The notes beneath the pieces are model-generated. The model had not been told where the DNA came from. It ran no database searches and saw nothing but the letters and a program-made list of their open reading frames with translations. The translations under genes and the position numbers were made by a program. DNA of 64,000 nt from Nitratireductor sp. B36. Lineage in GTDB: Bacteria > Pseudomonadota > Alphaproteobacteria > Rhizobiales > Rhizobiaceae. Positions 43,982 to 63,716 of this stretch are shown here, piece after piece (within the stretch, counting starts at the first letter, position 1; the number at the start of each line of letters is the position of its first letter). The DNA is taken from NCBI RefSeq assembly GCF_020833685.1, contig NZ_JACKZY010000004.1:62001-126000 (forward strand), in the 5' to 3' direction.

Positions 43982-45859
43982 TTACGCCTTGCCAATCGCT
44001 CTCGCCTTTTCTTCCTCGAACCACCACAGAGATTCCACCGGGAAGAAGTAATCCGGCTTGTTCTCGCTGTAGCCGAACATGTCCCAGTGGGCCACGCGGT
44101 GATTCGTCAGGTGCCAATTTGGAATCCAGTCGCGCCTTGCACGCAAGACCCTGTCCAACACCTTTAGCGTGACGGTCAGTTCGTCGCGGCTTTTCGCCTT
44201 ACCGGCAATTTCGATCAGTTCATCGACCACCGGATCGGCTGTGCCTGCAAAATTGTAGGTCCCTTCGACACTTGCCGTGCGGGAGTGGAATATCTGTTCG
44301 AGCCCGTTTGCATCCGGTGTGGCGGTCAGCCCGATCGCCATGGAGATCATGTCGAAATCGAATGCACTTTGCCGGCTTTGATATTGCGAGGCATCCACCA
44401 CACGGGTGGACGCATCGATGCCGATGGCCCGCAGGTTCTCGCCGAAGCTCGCATCCTGCCGCAGGAAGAGTTCATCCCGCACCAGATATTCCAGTGTGAA
44501 GCGCGTGCCCTTTTCATTGTGGAGAACACCGTCACGCGGGGTCCAGCCGGCCTCCGTCAGAAGCTGGCGCGCGCGTCTCAGATTGTTGCGGTCGCGGCCG
44601 GATCCGTCGGAGACCGGTTGCTTCACCGCCTCTCCAAACGCTGCCTCCGGCGCCTCGCCGCGAAAGCGGTCGAGCAGCGCCTGCTCCTCGGGCGAGGGAT
44701 CCCCCTCGGCCATGTAAGGCGAGCGTTCGAAAAACGAGTGCGACCGCGCATAGGCGTCGTAGAACAGGTTTCGGTTGGTCCATTCGAAGTCGAAGCACAG
44801 GCTGATGGCTTCGCGCACCCGCACATCCTTGAATTGTTCACGTCGCTGGTTGAGCACGAGGCCATAGAGTTGTGGGCGCTTCTCACCGGGGATTTCGGTT
44901 TGAAGCACGCGGCCATCGCGAATGGCGGGAAAATCGTACCCCGTCGCCCAGACGCGCGATGTGAACTCCTCGCGCCAGTAGACATCGCCCTTCTTGAAAG
45001 CCTCGAACCCGGCATTGCGGTCGCGGTAGAAGTCGATGCGGATCGTGTCGAAATGGTTGAACCCCTTGGCTGGGCCGAGATCGCGCGCCCAGTAGTCTTC
45101 CACGCGGTCGTATTCCACGTAGCGCCCGGCCGAAAAGCGCCCCACCTTGTAGGGGCCTGAGCCGAGGAGGGGCATCAGACGGGAGCTGTCGAAACCGTTT
45201 TTCTCGACAAACGCCTTTGAAAAGATCGGGAAACCCGCAACGGTGAGAATATTACGGCGTGATTGCGCACCGGAAAACCGCAGATGAACCAGATCGGACC
45301 CTTCGGCCGAGGCCTCTGTCATCTCGGTGAGTGGCAGCTGCAGCTGCGGGTGACCCTTCTCCTTCAGCAGGTCGTAGGTAAAGGCCACGTCTTCGGCGGT
45401 GACCGGTGAGCCATCATGAAACCGGGCCTCCGGGCGGAGTTTGAAGGTGAACCCGTTGCGGTCGTCGGAAAGCGTCACGCTCTCGGCCAGAAGCCCGTAT
45501 ATTGCATCGGGCTCGTCATAGGCCCGCACCATGAGGGAATCGAAACAGATCTCCATGCGCGGTGGCGCATCGCCGGTGCGAACAAAGGAATTCAGCGTAT
45601 TGAAGGTCAGGACGTTTTGATTGAAGAACCAGTACCCGGGCTGAAAATTGAACGTGCCGCCTTTTGGTGCATCTGGGCTGGCGTAGTCGAAATGGTTGAA
45701 ATTCGGCGCATATTTGAGGTCGCCGAACGCAGATAGCCCGTGCAGTGGCGATCCGGTCTCCACATCGGCAAACACGTCGTGCGGTAGCAACGGGAGGGCG
45801 ATCGCCGCACCGGCGAGCGACAGGAAGTCCCGGCGCGGTAGCTTTTCGCGCCCGCTCAA
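43982..45859 (-). CDS. yejA: Extracellular solute-binding protein, YejA-like, Tat-type signal
   Basis: This family 5 solute-binding protein captures peptides for the YejBEF permease. The TTG at 45859 overlaps the preceding stop (TTGA) and follows GGAG at 6 bases, giving 625 residues and a clean Tat-like signal, LPRRDFLSLAGAAIALPLL. A GTG at 45913 would extend it into the upstream gene. The core has FNHFDYASPDAPKGG and SGPYKVG. It is paralogous to the next gene upstream (45856-47736). Confidence 0.88.
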   Translation of the reverse strand: MSGREKLPRRDFLSLAGAAIALPLLPHDVFADVETGSPLHGLSAFGDLKYAPNFNHFDYASPDAPKGGTFNFQPGYWFFNQNVLTFNTLNSFVRTGDAPPRMEICFDSLMVRAYDEPDAIYGLLAESVTLSDDRNGFTFKLRPEARFHDGSPVTAEDVAFTYDLLKEKGHPQLQLPLTEMTEASAEGSDLVHLRFSGAQSRRNILTVAGFPIFSKAFVEKNGFDSSRLMPLLGSGPYKVGRFSAGRYVEYDRVEDYWARDLGPAKGFNHFDTIRIDFYRDRNAGFEAFKKGDVYWREEFTSRVWATGYDFPAIRDGRVLQTEIPGEKRPQLYGLVLNQRREQFKDVRVREAISLCFDFEWTNRNLFYDAYARSHSFFERSPYMAEGDPSPEEQALLDRFRGEAPEAAFGEAVKQPVSDGSGRDRNNLRRARQLLTEAGWTPRDGVLHNEKGTRFTLEYLVRDELFLRQDASFGENLRAIGIDASTRVVDASQYQSRQSAFDFDMISMAIGLTATPDANGLEQIFHSRTASVEGTYNFAGTADPVVDELIEIAGKAKSRDELTVTLKVLDRVLRARRDWIPNWHLTNHRVAHWDMFGYSENKPDYFFPVESLWWFEEEKARAIGKA

Positions 45860-56433: not shown

Positions 56434-56832
56434 GTGTTCATTGCAAAGATCATGTCCCGGATGGGCGCACTCGCGGGCGCCGCGATTATTCTGGCGAGTT
56501 GTACCGTCGTAGTCGAGGAAGGCCCCAATCGCCCTCGTCCTCCGCGGCCGGATCGGCCACAGATGTGTACGATGGAATACAACCCCGTCTGCGCACGACG
56601 CGGCGGAGAGCAGCGCACCTTCGGCAATGCGTGTTCGGCGCGCGCGCAGGGTTTCAGGATCGTGCGCCCAGGCACCTGCCGGCCTCAGTCGAACCGGCCA
56701 GGCCGTCCGCAGGCCTGCACGCGTGAATACAGGCCTGTTTGCGCCCGCAAGGGCGGCCAGCGTCGGACATTCGGCAATGCGTGCAGCGCGCGTGCTGCCG
56801 GCTTCCGGGTCGTTCGTCCCGGTCAGTGCTGA
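56434..56832 (+). CDS. Small lipoprotein with two Kazal-like repeats
   Basis: The GTG at 56434 gives 132 residues; ATGs at 56452 and 56461 are possible. A signal with lipobox LASC (about 21-24) precedes an Arg/Pro spacer, then two copies of a Kazal-type serine protease inhibitor-like module, near 44-82 and 94-132. Each has Cys at the start, PVCAR, a FGNACSAR segment and a final Cys, four cysteines in all. The copies are about 80% identical. It may inhibit proteases at the cell surface, or be structural. Confidence 0.8.
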   Translation: MFIAKIMSRMGALAGAAIILASCTVVVEEGPNRPRPPRPDRPQMCTMEYNPVCARRGGEQRTFGNACSARAQGFRIVRPGTCRPQSNRPGRPQACTREYRPVCARKGGQRRTFGNACSARAAGFRVVRPGQC

Positions 56833-56836
56833 CCAT

Positions 56837-57502
56837 CTAGCCGCGCCGCTTCTCCAATATTGAAAGGAGCGAGCGGCCGGCATCGAGAATGTGGGCGCGG
56901 GTGAGGTCGGCAGCCTCAGCCGCGTCGCCTTTCCTGCAAGCCTCGAATATTGCCATGTGCTCCCGGTTTGCGCGCTGCGCGCCGTCGGTCAGGGTAAGCT
57001 GCGCGCGAAGATAGCGGTCGACCCGGTCGAGTGAGGAGCGGATGATTTGCAGATGGTAGGGGCGGTCTGCAGCCTCGTAGAGCCCGTAGTGGAAGTTACG
57101 GTTTGCTTCCCCCCAGCTTCCGGGATCGGTGGTCTCGGCAAACGCCTGCAGGTTTGCCCGGGCGGCCTCCAGCTGCTCGCGTGTGAGGCTTGGAACGGCA
57201 AGTCGGATCATTTCGCTCTCAAGCAAGGCACGAAACTCGAATATCTCTTCGATCTCTGAGACCGAGAGCGCCGCCACCACCGTCCCCTTGAAGCGCTGCG
57301 TGGTCACCAGGCCGTCCTGTTCCAGGCGCTGAAGAGCCTCGCGCACGGGAATGCGGCTGGTGTTGAACATCTGCGCGATGTGATCCTGCCTCAGATGTTC
57401 TCCCTCTGCCAGTTCACCCTCGATGATGGCTTTGCGCAGGGCTTCGAAGACCAGATCGGTGGCCGAGGCCGTTTGTCTGATGTCGATTCTGTCCAGCTTC
57501 AT
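56837..57502 (-). CDS. GntR-family (FCD domain) regulator of the hydroxyproline operon
   Basis: The ATG at 57502 (MKLDRIDI) gives 221 residues. The N-terminal winged helix is ALRKAIIEGELAEGEHLRQDHIAQMFNTSRIPVREALQRLEQDGLV near 18-63, and the C-terminal FCD ligand-binding domain (about 80-210) has FEFRALLESEMIRLA. It is divergent from the catabolic operon, 312 bases away, with palindromic sequences in between. The usual role is repression relieved by a pathway intermediate. Confidence 0.88.
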   Translation of the reverse strand: MKLDRIDIRQTASATDLVFEALRKAIIEGELAEGEHLRQDHIAQMFNTSRIPVREALQRLEQDGLVTTQRFKGTVVAALSVSEIEEIFEFRALLESEMIRLAVPSLTREQLEAARANLQAFAETTDPGSWGEANRNFHYGLYEAADRPYHLQIIRSSLDRVDRYLRAQLTLTDGAQRANREHMAIFEACRKGDAAEAADLTRAHILDAGRSLLSILEKRRG

Positions 57503-57594
57503 CGTGTCGATCCCGCCTGAGGCATGTTGGCATCCACCGTCTCCGTGTCTGTGCGTTTGAGACACGCAAACGCGAGTCCTGCAGCTGCCGATTT

Positions 57595-57617
57595 TACAAT
57601 TGTATATTGGATCCAAT
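57595..57617. promoter_or_regulatory. Two adjacent palindromes, probable GntR operator
   Basis: TACAATTGTA (57595-57604) and ATTGGATCCAAT (57606-57617) are perfect palindromes one base apart, in the divergent gap between the GntR gene and the aldehyde dehydrogenase gene. FCD-type GntR regulators bind short palindromes of this kind. Binding is inferred from position only. Confidence 0.5.
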
Positions 57618-57814
57618 CTGAGTTAAAGATTTCTCCGCGATGTTTGGTTGGGTTCTCATGATCCGCCGGTAGGTGGCCCGAGAGATGTCTTATGTGCAAA
57701 CGGCAGGCTGGCATAACGAACCATCGCATGACTGGCAGACCACGTGTGCGTTAGGCTGCCCGTTGAAGTGAGACGGCCAAACAGAAACTGATTGAATTCG
57801 GGGGTATTCCACCA

Positions 57815-59272
57815 ATGGCGCTGAGTGAAACAGGCACCAACCATTTCAAGAACTACATTGCCGGCGAGTGGATCGAGGGCAATAGTCAGGTTGAAAACAT
57901 CAACCCGTCTGACACGCGCGATGTCGTTGGGCTGGCAGCGCGCTCCGGCGCAGCCGACCTCGACCGCGCCATCGATGCGGCACATGACGCGGCGCCGGGC
58001 TGGGCACGGTCTACCCCGCAGCAGCGCTATGACATTCTCGATGCCGTCGGCAATGAGATCATCGCCCGCAAAGACGAGCTTGGCCGTCTGCTTTCGCGCG
58101 AGGAAGGCAAGACGCTGGCAGAAGGCATTGGCGAGGTGGTGCGTGCCGGCCAGGTGTTCAAGTTTTTCGCAGGAGAGGCCGTCCGCCTGCCGGGCGAACG
58201 TCTCGATTCCATCCGTCCCGGCGTTGAGGTGGACATGCGCCGCGAGCCCATGGGCGTCATCGGCATGATCACCCCGTGGAACTTCCCTATCGCCATCCCG
58301 GCGTGGAAGATTGCCCCCGCACTCGCCTATGGCAATGCGGTCGTGCTGAAGCCGGCCGAACTCGTGCCGGGTTCCGCCTGGGCGCTGGCGGAAATCCTTT
58401 CGCGCTCCGGTCTGCCGGAAGGCGTGTTCAATCTGGTTGCGGGCCGCGGTTCCGAGCTTGGCCCGCGCATGATCGAAAACCCCAAGGTCCGCGCAATCTC
58501 CTTCACCGGCTCCGTGCCCACCGGGCGCGGCATTGCCGCAGCCTGTGGCGAGCATCTGAAGAAGGTGCAGCTCGAAATGGGCGGCAAGAACCCGCTTGTG
58601 GTTCTGGACGATGCCGATCTCGACGTGGCAGTGGGTGCGGCACTCAACGGTGCATTCTTCTCCACCGGGCAGCGCTGCACGGCCTCCAGCCGCCTCGTCG
58701 TAGCGGAGGGTATTCACGACCGCTTCGTCGCTGCCCTGACCGAAAAGCTGAAGACCCTCGTCGTCGGCGATGCGCTCGACCCCAAAACCCAGATGGGCCC
58801 GGTGGTCGATGAAAAACAGCTCGAACAGAACCTGTCCTATGTCGAGATCGCCGGCCAGGAAGGCGGAAAGCTCGCCATCGGCGGCGAGCGCCTGACGCTG
58901 GACAAGCCCGGCTTCTACATGGCGCCCACACTCTTCACCGAGACCAGCAACGATATGCGCATCAACCGCGAGGAGGTCTTCGGGCCTGTCGCCAGCGTTA
59001 TCCGCGTCAAGGATTACGAGGAAGCGCTGCACGTCGCCAACGACACGAGCTTCGGCCTCTCTTCGGGCATCTGCACCACCTCGCTCAAATATGCGAGCGA
59101 TTTCAAGCAGAAGTCGGAGGCCGGCATGGTCATGGTCAACCTGCCGACCGCCGGTGTCGACTACAACGTGCCTTTCGGCGGCACGAAGGGCTCGAGCTTC
59201 GGTTCGCGCGAACAGGGGCGCTACGCCGTCGAATTCTACACGACGGTGAAGACTGCCTACACGCAGCCCTGA
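57815..59272 (+). CDS. Aldehyde dehydrogenase, probable 2-oxoglutarate semialdehyde dehydrogenase
   Basis: The final step of hydroxyproline degradation oxidises 2-oxoglutarate semialdehyde to 2-oxoglutarate. This 485-residue protein has the ALDH catalytic set: Asn156 in PWNF, Glu254 in LEMGGK and Cys288 in GQRCTA, plus GSVPTGRGIA near 232-241 for nucleotide binding. Specificity is inferred from the operon partners rather than residues. It is first in the operon, about 200 bases downstream of the palindromes. Confidence 0.85.
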   Translation: MALSETGTNHFKNYIAGEWIEGNSQVENINPSDTRDVVGLAARSGAADLDRAIDAAHDAAPGWARSTPQQRYDILDAVGNEIIARKDELGRLLSREEGKTLAEGIGEVVRAGQVFKFFAGEAVRLPGERLDSIRPGVEVDMRREPMGVIGMITPWNFPIAIPAWKIAPALAYGNAVVLKPAELVPGSAWALAEILSRSGLPEGVFNLVAGRGSELGPRMIENPKVRAISFTGSVPTGRGIAAACGEHLKKVQLEMGGKNPLVVLDDADLDVAVGAALNGAFFSTGQRCTASSRLVVAEGIHDRFVAALTEKLKTLVVGDALDPKTQMGPVVDEKQLEQNLSYVEIAGQEGGKLAIGGERLTLDKPGFYMAPTLFTETSNDMRINREEVFGPVASVIRVKDYEEALHVANDTSFGLSSGICTTSLKYASDFKQKSEAGMVMVNLPTAGVDYNVPFGGTKGSSFGSREQGRYAVEFYTTVKTAYTQP

Positions 59273-59288
59273 TCGGAAGGAGCGGAGG

Positions 59289-60548
59289 ATGGGCAAAGCC
59301 CGTTCGCAAGGAAACGCCGATGTCGCCATCATAGGCGGCGGGATCATCGGCATCGCCACTGCGTTCCGCCTGGCGCAGGCCGGCCGGCAGGTCGTACTCA
59401 TAGAGCGCGATGCGCCGGCCAATGCCGCGAGCCGGGGCAATGCCGGTGCTTTCGCCTTTCCTTCCATCCTCCCGCTGGCGTCACCCGGCATTCTCTTCAA
59501 GGCGCCCAAATGGCTGTTCGATCCACTGGGGCCGCTCTCCATTCCGCCGGCGGAGTTCCCAAAGGTTCTGCCCTGGCTTCTGCGCTTCTTCCGCGCCTCC
59601 ATGCCAGACCGCATCGAGGCCAGCACGGCGGCGCAGGCGGCCCTGAACCGGCTTTCCGAAACAGAAACCGCAACCCTCACGCGGGAAGCCGGGCTCGACC
59701 ATCTGGTGCGCCATGATGGCGCTCTGGAGCTTTATGAGAGCGAGGCCGCATGGCGCGCCTCGCTGAAAAGCTGGGAACGTTGCGAAAAGGCCGGCGTCGA
59801 GATCGAGCACGTGGAAGGCGCACGCCTCGCCGAATTGCAGCCGGGCCTCTCGCCGAGATTGGTAAAGGGCGTGTTCCTGCCGCAGTGGAAAACGGTCAGC
59901 GACCCGCGCGACTATGCGCTTGCCCTGCTGGAAGCCGCCCGGGCGCGGGGCGTCAAGCTTGTCGCGGGAGCGGTCTCTCACCTTGCTGTTAGCACCGAAG
60001 GCGTCATGGTCACTCTTGAGGGTGGTCAAACCCTCAAGGCAGCCCATGCCGTTCTCGCCGCCGGGCCGTGGTCGAGCAAGCTCACTGCCCTGCTCGGTGA
60101 CAAACTGCCCGTCACACCCGAACGCGGCTACAACACCACGCTGCCGCCCGGCAGCTTCGACCTGAAACGGCAGGTCATCTTTCCCGCGCACGGCTTCGTG
60201 GTCACGCCGCTTGCCACAGGCATCCGCGTTGGCGGCGCGTCCGAGCTTGCCGGCTTCGATGCCCCGGTCAATTACAAGCGCGCACGGAACATGCTCGACA
60301 AGGCCGCCGGTTTCCTGCCGGGTCTGAAACGCGAAGGGGGAACGGAGTGGATGGGCTCGCGCCCCTCCATGCCCGATTCGCTTCCGGTCATTGGGCGGGC
60401 CTCCTCCAGCCCCCGCATCCTCTATGCCTTCGGCCACGGCCATCTGGGGCTCACCCAGTCGGCCGCCACGGCTCGACTCATCACTGATCTCATCCTTGAA
60501 CGAACCCCACCCATCGACATATCGCCCTTCCGGCCCGGCCGGTTTTGA
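59289..60548 (+). CDS. FAD-dependent D-amino-acid oxidoreductase (DadA-like)
   Basis: The 419-residue protein has the FAD-binding motif VAIIGGGIIGIATAFRLA near 12-29 and the DAO family body ending in AFGHGHLGLTQSAATARLI near 379-397, as in D-amino-acid dehydrogenases. In hydroxyproline operons such enzymes oxidise cis-4-hydroxy-D-proline to pyrroline-4-hydroxy-2-carboxylate. It lies between the dehydrogenase (16-base gap) and the epimerase (12-base gap). Confidence 0.85.
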   Translation: MGKARSQGNADVAIIGGGIIGIATAFRLAQAGRQVVLIERDAPANAASRGNAGAFAFPSILPLASPGILFKAPKWLFDPLGPLSIPPAEFPKVLPWLLRFFRASMPDRIEASTAAQAALNRLSETETATLTREAGLDHLVRHDGALELYESEAAWRASLKSWERCEKAGVEIEHVEGARLAELQPGLSPRLVKGVFLPQWKTVSDPRDYALALLEAARARGVKLVAGAVSHLAVSTEGVMVTLEGGQTLKAAHAVLAAGPWSSKLTALLGDKLPVTPERGYNTTLPPGSFDLKRQVIFPAHGFVVTPLATGIRVGGASELAGFDAPVNYKRARNMLDKAAGFLPGLKREGGTEWMGSRPSMPDSLPVIGRASSSPRILYAFGHGHLGLTQSAATARLITDLILERTPPIDISPFRPGRF

Positions 60549-60560
60549 CAGGAAAGCATC

Positions 60561-61562
60561 ATGGCGGTCAGCACCTTCACCTGTATCGACGGCCACACCT
60601 GCGGAAACCCCGTGCGTGTGGTGGCCGGCGGCGGCCCGCAGCTCCAGGGTTCCACCATGCTGGAGCGCCGCGCGCACTTCCTCGCCGAATATGACTGGAT
60701 TCGCACCGGCCTGATGTTCGAGCCGCGCGGCCACGACATGATGTCCGGCTCCATCCTCTATCCGCCCACGCGGGAGGATTGCGACATCGGCATCCTCTTC
60801 ATCGAAACGTCGGGCTGCCTGCCCATGTGCGGGCATGGCACGATTGGCACCATCACCATCGGCATCGAAAACGGCCTCATCCGTCCGCGCGAGCCCGGCG
60901 TGGTCCGTCTCGACACGCCGGCGGGCCTTGTCGTTGTGGAGTACGAGCAGAACGATCGTTTTGTCGAAAAGGTGCGCCTCACCAATGTGCCGGCCTTCGT
61001 TCATGCGACCGGTCTCACAGCCGAGGTCGAGGGGCTTGGCGAAGTCACGGTCGATGTCGCCTATGGCGGCAATTTCTACGCCATCGTCGAGCCGCAGCCT
61101 GCCTTCGAGGATATGGCGAACCACACGGCGGGCGAGCTCATAGGCTGGAGCCCGAAACTGCGCGCCGCCCTCAACGCGAAATACGATTTCGTGCATCCTG
61201 AAAAGCCCGACATCAAGGGCCTGAGCCACATTCTGTGGACCGGCAAACCCACTCGGCCTGAAGCGCACGCGCGCAATGCGGTGTTTTATGGCGACAAGGC
61301 CATCGACCGCTCACCCTGCGGCACGGGCACCTCGGCGCGTATGGCGCATTGGCATGCGAAAGGGCTCCTGAAACCCGGCGACGATTTCGTCCACGAAAGC
61401 ATCATCGGCTCCATGTTCGAAGGCCGTGTGGAGGCCGAAACGCAGGTTGCAGGCAAGCCCGCCATCGTGCCTTCGGTCGCCGGCTGGGCGCGTGTCACGG
61501 GCTACAACACGATCATGATCGACGACCGCGATCCCTATGCCCACGGCTTTGTTGTCGTTTGA
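60561..61562 (+). CDS. 4-hydroxyproline 2-epimerase (proline racemase family)
   Basis: This 333-residue protein has both active-site cysteines of the family, Cys90 in PMCGHGTIG and Cys253 in SPCGTGTSAR, the pair that supports epimerisation of trans-4-hydroxy-L-proline to cis-4-hydroxy-D-proline. A proline racemase activity is the main alternative, but the operon favours hydroxyproline. It is third in the operon. Confidence 0.88.
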   Translation: MAVSTFTCIDGHTCGNPVRVVAGGGPQLQGSTMLERRAHFLAEYDWIRTGLMFEPRGHDMMSGSILYPPTREDCDIGILFIETSGCLPMCGHGTIGTITIGIENGLIRPREPGVVRLDTPAGLVVVEYEQNDRFVEKVRLTNVPAFVHATGLTAEVEGLGEVTVDVAYGGNFYAIVEPQPAFEDMANHTAGELIGWSPKLRAALNAKYDFVHPEKPDIKGLSHILWTGKPTRPEAHARNAVFYGDKAIDRSPCGTGTSARMAHWHAKGLLKPGDDFVHESIIGSMFEGRVEAETQVAGKPAIVPSVAGWARVTGYNTIMIDDRDPYAHGFVVV

Positions 61563-61571
61563 GGAGAGACC

Positions 61572-62684
61572 ATGAAAATCACAGCTATCCGCGCCTATCA
61601 GGTCGACCTGCCGCTGAAGGAAGGGCGCTATTCATGGTCGAACGGAAATTTTGTCGAGGTCTTCGATTCCACCGTCGTCGCCATCGAGACGGATGAGGGC
61701 ATCACCGGCTATGCCGAATGCTGCCCGCTGGGTTCGGCCTATCTGCCGTCCTATGCGCGCGGCGTGCGGGCCGGACTTGAGGAAATCGCACCAAAGCTGA
61801 TCGGCCTCGATCCCACCAATCTCGGTCTCGTCAACCGCAGCATGGATGCGGCACTCAACGGCCACCCCTATGTGAAAGCGCCGCTCGACATCGCCTGCTG
61901 GGATCTTCTCGGCAAGGCAAGCGGCCTGCCGCTGGTCACGCTTCTCGGCGGCAGTGCGCAGGACGAGGTGCGCCTCTACCGCGCCATCTCGCAGGAAGAC
62001 CCGGATCAGATGGCAAAGAAGATCGCCGGCTACAAGGCCGAGGGCTACACCAAGTTCCAGCTCAAGGTCGGCGGCAATGCGGATGACGACATCGCCCGCA
62101 TCCGCGCCTGCCGCGAAATCCTCGACGACACGGACATTCTCGTGGCCGACGCCAACACCGGCTGGACGCGGCACGAGGCAGCACGTGTGGTCGATGCGGT
62201 GGCCGATCTCGATGTCTATATCGAGCAGCCATGCGCCACCTATGACGAGTGCCTGTCGATCCGCCGCCGCACGGCAAAGCCTTTCGTCATGGATGAAAAC
62301 ATCACCGGTCTGGATATGCTCGTACGCGGCCTGGCCGACGACGCATTCGACGTCATCAACCTGAAAATCTCCAAGGTCGGTGGCCTTTCGAAGGCGCGCA
62401 CCATGCGCAATGTGTGCGTGGCACACGGCATCCCCATGACCATCGAAGACACATGGGGCGGCGACATCGTCACCGCCGCGATTGCCCATCTGGCGCAGTC
62501 GACCCCGTCCGATTTCGTCTTCTCGGCAACGGATTTCAATTCCTACGGCACAAAAGCCATCGCCGCCAACGCGCCGAAGCGCGTCAATGGCGGCATGAAA
62601 GCGCCGTCCGGGCCGGGCCTCGGTATCGAGCCTGATTTCGAAGCGCTCGGCGCGCCAGTCCTGTCGTTTGACAAAGGCGCTTGA
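61572..62684 (+). CDS. Enolase-superfamily enzyme, candidate cis-3-hydroxy-L-proline dehydratase
   Basis: The 370-residue protein is a mandelate racemase/muconate lactonising enzyme type: metal ligands Asp193 (ADAN), Glu218 (IEQP) and Asp241 (MDEN), with lysines Lys165 (FQLKVGG) and Lys265 (LKISKVGG) on opposite faces as acid-base residues. Related enzymes near proline racemase genes dehydrate cis-3-hydroxy-L-proline. Alternatives are a hydroxyproline-betaine epimerase or another MLE-like enzyme. It lies 9 bases after the epimerase. Confidence 0.75.
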
Positions 62685-62687
62685 GCC

Positions 62688-63716
62688 ATGCGCTCCAGCC
62701 GGGTCATCCACATCGTCTCCTGCCATGCCGAGGGCGAGGTGGGCGACGTCATTGTCGGCGGGGTGCTCCCACCGCCCGGGGATACGCTGTGGGAGCAGCG
62801 CAGTTTCATCGCCCGAGATCAAAACCTGCGCAATTTTGTGCTCAATGAGCCGCGCGGCGGCGTCTTCCGCCATGTCAATCTTCTCGTCCCGCCAAAGAAT
62901 CCGGCAGCCGATATGGGCTTCATCATCATGGAGCCGGAAGACACGCCGCCCATGTCTGGCTCCAATTCCATCTGCGTCGCCACCGTGCTGCTCGACACGG
63001 GCATCGTGCCCATGACCGAGCCCGAGACGAAGCTCGTTCTGGAAGCGCCGGGCGGTCTCGTTCAGGTGGTTGCCGAATGCCGCAACGGCAAGGCAGAGCG
63101 CATTCGTGTCACCAATGTGCCCTCCTTCGCTGACCGTCTGGACGCGCCTCTGGAGGTCGCGGGTCTCGGCACGCTCACGGTCGATACCGCCTATGGCGGC
63201 GACAGTTTCGTCATCGCCGATGCTGCCGCACTCGGCTTCTCCGTCACGCCGGATGAAGCCCGCGATCTGGCCGAAACCGGCGCGAAGATCACAAGGGCTG
63301 CCAATGAGCAGCTTGGCTTCACCCATCCCGACAACCCGGAATGGGATCACATTTCCTTCTGCCAGCTCGCCCTGCCGGTCGAGGAAACCGCGGATGGTCT
63401 TGTCGGGCGCAACACGGTCGTCATTCGCCCGGCCAAGCTCGACCGGTCGCCGACCGGCACCGGATGCTCCGCCCGTATGGCCGTGCTCTATGCGCAGGGG
63501 CGCATGAAGGTGGGAGATCGGTTCACAGGCGTGTCTGTGCTCGGTTCTCGTTTTGAGTGCAGCATCGTGAGCGAAACATTCGCAGGAGATAAGCTGGCTA
63601 TCATACCTGAGATCGCCGGACGAGGGTGGGTCACGGGGACCCACCAACTGATGCTCGACCCGTCCGATCCATGGCCGCACGGATACCGGGTTTCAGACAC
63701 TTGGGCAGACAATTAA
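62688..63716 (+). CDS. Proline racemase-family protein with Ser/Thr catalytic pair (candidate trans-3-hydroxy-L-proline dehydratase)
   Basis: The 342-residue protein belongs to the proline racemase family, but the first catalytic Cys is Ser90 (PMSGSNS) and the second is Thr256 (SPTGTGC). In the family a Thr at the second position is linked to trans-3-hydroxy-L-proline dehydratase, giving pyrroline-2-carboxylate. The Ser/Thr pair should not support two-base epimerisation. Cys260 and Cys96 lie nearby but are off the usual positions. It is 3 bases after the enolase-type gene and ends the operon. Confidence 0.78.

Follow-up and report, generated by a model that had tools for sequence, protein, structure and literature searches.

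A five-gene operon of Nitratireductor sp. B36 very probably breaks down three isomers of hydroxyproline, an amino acid of collagen, and with high confidence represents half of a pathway for free hydroxyprolines that is spread over two loci. The operon lies in a stretch of 64,000 nucleotides, here called the window (contig C4, positions 62001-126000), of a genome (G000) of 4.19 Mb that is assembled in 9 contigs and is 99.7% complete. The sequence supports a full route for trans-4-, cis-3- and trans-3-hydroxyproline in this Nitratireductor-related alphaproteobacterium, with the genes that lie beyond the window now supplied by a locus on contig C3. The gene structure, protein families, catalytic residues, genome content, conserved neighbourhoods and conserved palindromes are established here, and the last two include a palindrome and an either/or pattern of deaminases that yield testable predictions on how the pathway is regulated and reassembled.

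Enzymes of the hydroxyproline operon

Genes 1 to 5 are the five plus-strand open reading frames (ORFs) in order, with positions and strands given for the window and protein lengths in amino acids (aa):

57815..59272, plus strand: gene 1, 485 aa, Pfam Aldedh; aldehyde dehydrogenase, probable alpha-ketoglutarate semialdehyde dehydrogenase
59289..60548, plus strand: gene 2, 419 aa, Pfam DAO; D-amino-acid oxidoreductase dependent on flavin adenine dinucleotide, probable cis-4-hydroxy-D-proline oxidase/dehydrogenase (HypO-like)
60561..61562, plus strand: gene 3, 333 aa, Pfam Pro_racemase; 4-hydroxyproline 2-epimerase
61572..62684, plus strand: gene 4, 370 aa, Pfam MR_MLE_N+C; enolase-superfamily cis-3 dehydratase
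62688..63716, plus strand: gene 5, 342 aa, Pfam Pro_racemase; trans-3 dehydratase

The initial annotation had described five genes packed into 57815-63716 and separated by 16, 12, 9 and 3 bases, and the ORF coordinates match this exactly, all on one strand; the spacing suggests that they form one transcript. It had also assigned the cluster to the catabolism of the three isomers, which is supported by the curated cut-offs and catalytic residues of genes 3-5 and by the C3 candidates, as well as by Roseibium aggregatum IAM 12614, in which homologues of genes 4 and 5 occur together with published growth (PMC4113996 Table 3). Identities were tested against NCBIfam curated cut-offs, with the best 25 families per protein examined. 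By this measure the names first proposed for genes 3, 4 and 5 hold, each scoring above a curated equivalog cut-off, and those for genes 1 and 2, which score above none, are left to other evidence.

Gene 3 scores 602 bits against NF010578 (4-hydroxyproline 2-epimerase, cut-off 376), is 79% identical to its Sinorhizobium meliloti homologue and has the catalytic pair Cys90/Cys253, as in epimerases. Gene 5 scores 637 bits against NF047722 (cut-off 550) and matches 4k8l, 1tm0 and 4k7g in the PDB. Its MSGSN motif from residue 89 and DRSPTG motif from residue 252 place Ser90, Asn93 and Thr256 at residue numbers identical to those of the solved dehydratase B9K4G4, and several bacterial Ser-Thr proteins are annotated as dehydratases of this type (PMC4364671). 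Only three proline-racemase homologues are found in the genome, namely genes 3 and 5 and a protein that scores above no cut-off. The latter (L005:8427-9443, G000:C4:383427-384443) adjoins TRAP transporter genes and has a Cys/Gly pair (MCGHG, DRSPGG) that recurs in two congeners (97-99% identity) and differs from the Cys/Cys, Cys/Thr, Ser/Cys or Ser/Thr pairs named for the superfamily in the parts of the literature consulted.

Gene 4 scores 720 bits against NF043002 (cut-off 500), and its best PDB match is 4mgg (629 bits across residues 1-365, with NLKISKVGG identical). Residues D193, E218, D241, K165 and K265 fall in motifs conserved in the 4mgg alignment; by the pattern of the superfamily, these are taken to be the expected metal ligands and lysines. 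The best relatives in named genomes are from Nitratireductor (e.g., N. aquibiodomus NL21, 97%). The enzyme of Labrenzia aggregata, which shares its strain number with Roseibium aggregatum IAM 12614, epimerises and dehydrates cis-3-hydroxy-L-proline (PMC8142540, PMC5144071). It is barely credible that gene 4 acts instead on a betaine or other proline derivative, like the hydroxyproline-betaine epimerases of the enolase superfamily: the activity of LhpJ has been set against that of hydroxyproline betaine 2-epimerase and of proline betaine racemase (PMC5144071), and the PDB matches of lower score are to unassigned 'mandelate racemase/muconate lactonizing' proteins, but gene 4 is 76% identical to a protein (L074) from the very strain of the published enzyme. 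A role as cis-3 dehydratase is the preferred reading of gene 4; an AcnX-type cis-3 dehydratase was sought in the genome and none was found.

The two remaining genes are assigned with more reserve. Gene 2, from its family and place, is the probable cis-4-hydroxy-D-proline oxidase/dehydrogenase and is 52% identical to the DAO protein that adjoins the epimerase in the S. meliloti hyp locus. Gene 1 is proposed to work like an alpha-ketoglutarate semialdehyde dehydrogenase, on the basis of its family, its operon context and its failure to co-occur with the HypH type described below.

A second locus on contig C3

The deaminase for pyrroline-4-hydroxy-2-carboxylate and the pyrroline-2-carboxylate reductase were said from the outset to lie outside the window, and the DHDPS, ornithine-cyclodeaminase and Ldh_2 families indeed have zero matches within C4:62001-126000. 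The genome search that the initial annotation had called for finds candidates for both on contig C3. The genome holds seven DHDPS-family matches and one Ldh_2 match; in the C3 stretch (L017), the Ldh_2 gene adjoins one of the DHDPS genes, together with genes for an aldehyde dehydrogenase, a TRAP transporter and an FCD-type GntR regulator. The C3 block resembles that of S. meliloti 1021 pSymB (L119) in its regulator (74%), DHDPS (80%), Ldh_2 (76%) and dehydrogenase (73%) proteins, and the S. meliloti stretch continues with homologues of gene 2 (52%) and gene 3 (79%). Individual ORFs are matched to hyp gene names by family and are thus putative assignments. The C3 DHDPS protein matches 2hmc, 4mpq and 5czj at more than 570 bits (next match, 84), and the C3 dehydrogenase matches 3v4c at 805 bits and 1eyy at 444 (next match, 96); these gaps in score set both proteins apart from ordinary family members.

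An ornithine-cyclodeaminase-type pyrroline-2-carboxylate reductase was also sought, and two of the three family matches are an ornithine cyclodeaminase and EutC, both over their cut-offs. Because these two are other enzymes, the C3 Ldh_2 protein is the likely pyrroline-2-carboxylate reductase; Ldh_2-superfamily members in such clusters reduce the ketimine concerned (PMC4113996 section 13). The third ornithine-cyclodeaminase-family gene comes after TRAP transporter genes (L020:3222-7162, G000:C4:23222-27162). A Pro_dh search of the genome gives one match.

In the proposed pathway, trans-4-hydroxy-L-proline would be epimerised by gene 3 to cis-4-hydroxy-D-proline, which gene 2 would oxidise to pyrroline-4-hydroxy-2-carboxylate. 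The HypD-like DHDPS protein of C3 would deaminate this product to alpha-ketoglutarate semialdehyde, and gene 1 and/or the HypH-like dehydrogenase of C3 would then form alpha-ketoglutarate. The enzyme activities are inferred, as are the single transcript, the repression and the inducer.

Conservation of the neighbourhood

The related loci are the best 80 of 245 that hold gene 4 relatives. Of the 78 loci with enough downstream sequence, 58 have a gene-5 homologue (at least 55% identity) directly downstream of the gene 4 relative; of the 73 for which the upstream sequence suffices, 62 have a gene-2 homologue (at least 40%) on that side. All five genes occur in the exact order of the window in 7/73 loci, and the four-gene core (genes 2-5) is found in 20/73. 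Such conserved neighbourhoods indicate that the grouping of the genes is not chance. Within the genus, the cis-3 dehydratase (gene 4 type) is present in 9 of 10 genomes. In the congener G006, no gene 4 is found at E <= 1e-100, and a single 20-kb stretch (L109) carries homologues of genes 2 (49%), 3 (79%) and 5 (74%) as well as of the C3 DctP, dehydrogenase, Ldh_2, DHDPS and GntR genes (85-91%). The gene-5 homologue of N. aquibiodomus NL21 (L026:11117-12137) is matched by overlapping pieces only, in a draft assembly, and gene 5 thus appears interrupted in that assembly.

A divergent regulator and its candidate operator

Upstream of the operon, and beyond the coordinates first given for it, lie a divergent gene and two sites:

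56837..57502, minus strand: FCD-type GntR regulator, 221 aa, Pfam GntR + FCD; candidate operon regulator
57606..57617, no strand: candidate operator ATTGGATCCAAT, a perfect palindrome of 12 base pairs (bp), conserved upstream of the regulator
57599..57626 (L004:1599-1626), minus strand: weak sigma-70-like match

Repression of the operon is probably exerted by the divergent FCD/GntR protein, acting at ATTGGATCCAAT. Regulator orthologues (at least 50% identity) are present on the opposite strand in 40 of the 80 related loci, and ATTGGATCCAAT with at most one mismatch lies no more than 300 bp upstream of the orthologue in 31 of these 40 (25 exact) and nowhere else in them. By comparison, 89 control palindromes with permuted half-sites occur in at most 2/40 loci (mean 0.04). 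The 31 loci are not independent, as seven are from Nitratireductor and many from Roseibium; the set also covers Cucumibacter, Pannonibacter, Stappia, Thalassovita and others. The genome has one exact copy of ATTGGATCCAAT and one more place with one mismatch, and the congener G001 has the site with one mismatch. The half-sites of ATTGGATCCAAT are TTGG/CCAA, with the mixed half-sites ATTGGATACAAT and ATTGTATCCAAT in relatives; operators of the FadR/FCD subfamily are palindromes in which 2-3 bases separate a TKGT from an ACMA box (PMC4494728). The sigma-70-like match, a match to consensus only (2 in the stretch versus 1.0 expected), hints that the palindrome may lie within the regulator's own promoter. 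On the Aminobacter plasmid pSR1 (L116:7734-9672), a one-mismatch palindrome is found between a regulator orthologue and a divergent gene-5 homologue, and this pair adjoins genes for peptide transport and aminopeptidase P.

At the C3 locus, ATTGGATCCAAT is absent (at most one mismatch), but HypR-like sites are present: two sequences resemble TTTGTCGACAAA, each with one mismatch. For the first of them, located between the regulator and the DHDPS gene, equivalents occur in S. meliloti and Paracoccus denitrificans (exact) and in five of the seven congener loci examined (L107-L111; not L106 or L113); the second, upstream of DctP, has a counterpart in one of the seven (L111). HypR is the repressor of the S. 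meliloti hyp system (PMC5343134). Single copies of TTTGTCGACAAA mean little, as it has 16 genome places at up to one mismatch versus 3 for the reversed control. At the operon, no TTTGTCGACAAA-like site (at most one mismatch) is present in 57503-57814, and the sole match in the window is at 45200. With different sites at the operon and at C3, the two halves of the pathway appear to be under two regulators, such that one pathway would be shared by the FCD/GntR protein at the operon and a HypR-like protein at C3.

This division bears on an alternative in which only 3-hydroxyprolines are broken down by the operon, with genes 1-3 directed at a different D-imino acid or aldehyde and trans-4-hydroxyproline degraded by genes located elsewhere. 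Consistent with this alternative, the pathway is divided between two regulators and two operator types, the regulator orthologue (70%) and a gene-5 homologue (81%) are divergently oriented on the Aminobacter plasmid, and no 4-hydroxyproline gene is detected in the 18.7-kb Aminobacter stretch by annotation or by tblastn with the window and C3 proteins. It is nonetheless unlikely, given that gene 3 scores above the cut-off for a 4-hydroxyproline epimerase and shares 79% identity with its S. meliloti counterpart, that the genome has just the three proline-racemase homologues, of which the Cys/Gly protein is above no cut-off, and that LhpJ of Starkeya novella is induced by both cis-3- and trans-4-hydroxyproline (PMC5144071). 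Such induction by both isomers would fit one regulator answering both.

Several other points weigh against the preferred reading, a two-locus pathway for all three isomers. The splitting of trans-4-hydroxyproline breakdown across two regulators is odd, and the operon could mainly serve 3-hydroxyprolines. The best NCBIfam models of gene 1 (2,5-dioxovalerate and alpha-ketoglutarate semialdehyde dehydrogenases) fall under their cut-offs (525 vs 750 and 524 vs 770 bits), as does that of gene 2 (D-amino acid dehydrogenase, 227 bits, cut-off 383); the C3 deaminase, reductase and aldehyde dehydrogenase candidates are above no NCBIfam cut-off; and the third ornithine-cyclodeaminase-family match (C4:26398-27162) is a remaining candidate reductase. 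In vitro, members of the proline-racemase superfamily show promiscuous activity (PMC4113996). No clear terminator is evident, with 8 terminator-like sites versus 7.0 expected. ATTGGATCCAAT (at most one mismatch) is missing in 9 of the 40 regulator loci (six Ancylobacter, one Xanthobacteraceae bacterium and two Labrenzia/Roseibium), and an Ensifer plasmid encodes the regulator (71%) in an 18.7-kb stretch that lacks the palindrome (at most two mismatches) and the other query genes, bar the cross-matching C3 regulator. Thus, the regulator is not tied to the operon everywhere.

A possible exchange of the deaminase

A second DHDPS-family subfamily occurs in hydroxyproline operons, where it replaces HypD:

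L029:6774-7679, L031:5120-6025 and L033:5229-6134: genes of the second DHDPS type

In N. soli, N. pacificus and N. indicus, this gene lies between the regulator and gene 1 or 2. The second type and the C3 HypD share 27.6% identity across 232 residues, and a PDB search with the former finds general family members only (best, 115 bits); the second type is possibly a non-orthologous pyrroline-4-hydroxy-2-carboxylate deaminase. Among the 80 loci, 36 have the HypD type (at least 60%) and 21 the second type (at least 45%), with both in 0 and neither in 23. Of 10 genus genomes, HypD-like genes are found in 8 (the G009 match having one in-frame TGA) and the second, in-operon type in the other 2. In a count of 60 genomes, the second type was taken at 68% identity or more (10 genomes, two with an in-frame stop), which left out five more genomes whose matches are at 43-47% and of which one, G029, has HypD; 30 of the 60 have neither type at the cut-offs used. 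A similar pattern is seen for the dehydrogenases: gene 1 type (at least 70%) is found in 14 and HypH type (at least 60%) in 16 of 66 wide loci, together in 0 and neither in 36. By the hypergeometric distribution, the probability of zero overlap is 0.011 (60 genomes, 10 vs 20), 0.022 (10 congeners, 8 vs 2) and 2e-7 (80 loci, 21 vs 36) for the deaminases, and 0.012 (66 loci, 14 vs 16) for gene 1 versus HypH type; these figures describe patterns, because they assume an independence of genomes that does not hold.

The lack of an in-operon deaminase could also mean that the operon is a decayed remnant, in which this gene and a transporter were lost and 4-hydroxyproline breakdown is no longer completed. 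In related operons, a gene of the DHDPS family does separate the regulator from gene 1 or 2, with no match to it in G000 (E <= 1e-60), and gene 5 is interrupted in the N. aquibiodomus NL21 assembly (G004/L026). Decay is very unlikely, however, as each of the five reading frames is open here, gene 4 has counterparts of 95-97% identity in five congeners, C3 carries a full HypD-like gene that is 92-99% identical in five congeners, and one deaminase type, never both, is found in each of the 10 genus genomes at the cut-offs applied. A scenario of swappable modules for hydroxyproline breakdown in these bacteria may be offered tentatively, with slightly more doubt than trust: a non-HypR regulon with its own FCD regulator and ATTGGATCCAAT would join 3- and 4-hydroxyproline breakdown, and its ancestral second DHDPS gene (about 28% to HypD) would have been lost, with HypD elsewhere, under a second regulator, as the substitute.

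Comparison with known systems

Clusters of this kind are often related to trans-4-, cis-3- and trans-3-hydroxyproline (PMC5144071), and L. aggregata grows on trans-4-, cis-4-, trans-3- and cis-3-hydroxyproline (PMC4113996 Table 3); by this published growth and these cluster descriptions, the operon type is already known. The LhpJ cluster of Labrenzia (Roseibium) aggregata IAM 12614 (L074) has a regulator of the same type (57%), an exact palindrome and, side by side, the cis-3 dehydratase (76%) and after it the trans-3 dehydratase (72%). Unlike the operon described here, a HypD-type deaminase (79% to that of C3) and a different, 38%-identical epimerase-type gene precede its gene 4, and homologues of genes 1 and 2 are not found within the 13.4-kb stretch examined.

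The S. meliloti hyp locus (HypR regulon) has the same enzyme set for trans-4-hydroxyproline and has counterparts of four C3 genes at 73-80% identity, and both loci have a TTTGTCGACAAA-like site between the regulator and the DHDPS gene. By contrast, the S. meliloti epimerase and oxidase homologues share the stretch of the regulator, whereas here they are in the window operon under another regulator, and neither gene 4 nor a close gene 5 homologue is present in the 19-kb S. meliloti stretch. In P. denitrificans HAMBI_2443 (L120), a C3-type block similarly adjoins homologues of genes 2 and 3; growth on four hydroxyprolines is reported for another strain, PD1222 (PMC4113996 Table 3). The cis-3-hydroxyproline operons of Ancylobacter and Pannonibacter share the regulator, oxidase, epimerase, cis-3 and trans-3 dehydratases in identical order but differ in having a different, in-operon DHDPS-family gene (75-82% to that of N. 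indicus) and kilobases between the regulator and the enzymes; gene 1 is found in the Pannonibacter operons, not in those of Ancylobacter.

The operator and the deaminase swap appear to be additions to the known operon type, as no description of them was found in the parts of the literature searched. A search with 'hydroxyproline' and 'Nitratireductor' found no paper joining both, and among the matches listed for the letters of ATTGGATCCAAT, none concerns hydroxyproline regulation by title or start of abstract.

Neighbouring genes

The genes that flank the operon and its regulator were read by eye. After the operon, a short plus-strand ORF with no evident function runs from 63837 to past the end of the window, and further on is an S21-like ribosomal protein ORF on the minus strand (L004:8145-8474). 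On the far side of the regulator (56434-56832, plus strand) is a small probable lipoprotein of 132 aa, with two repeats that appear to resemble Kazal-type inhibitor domains.

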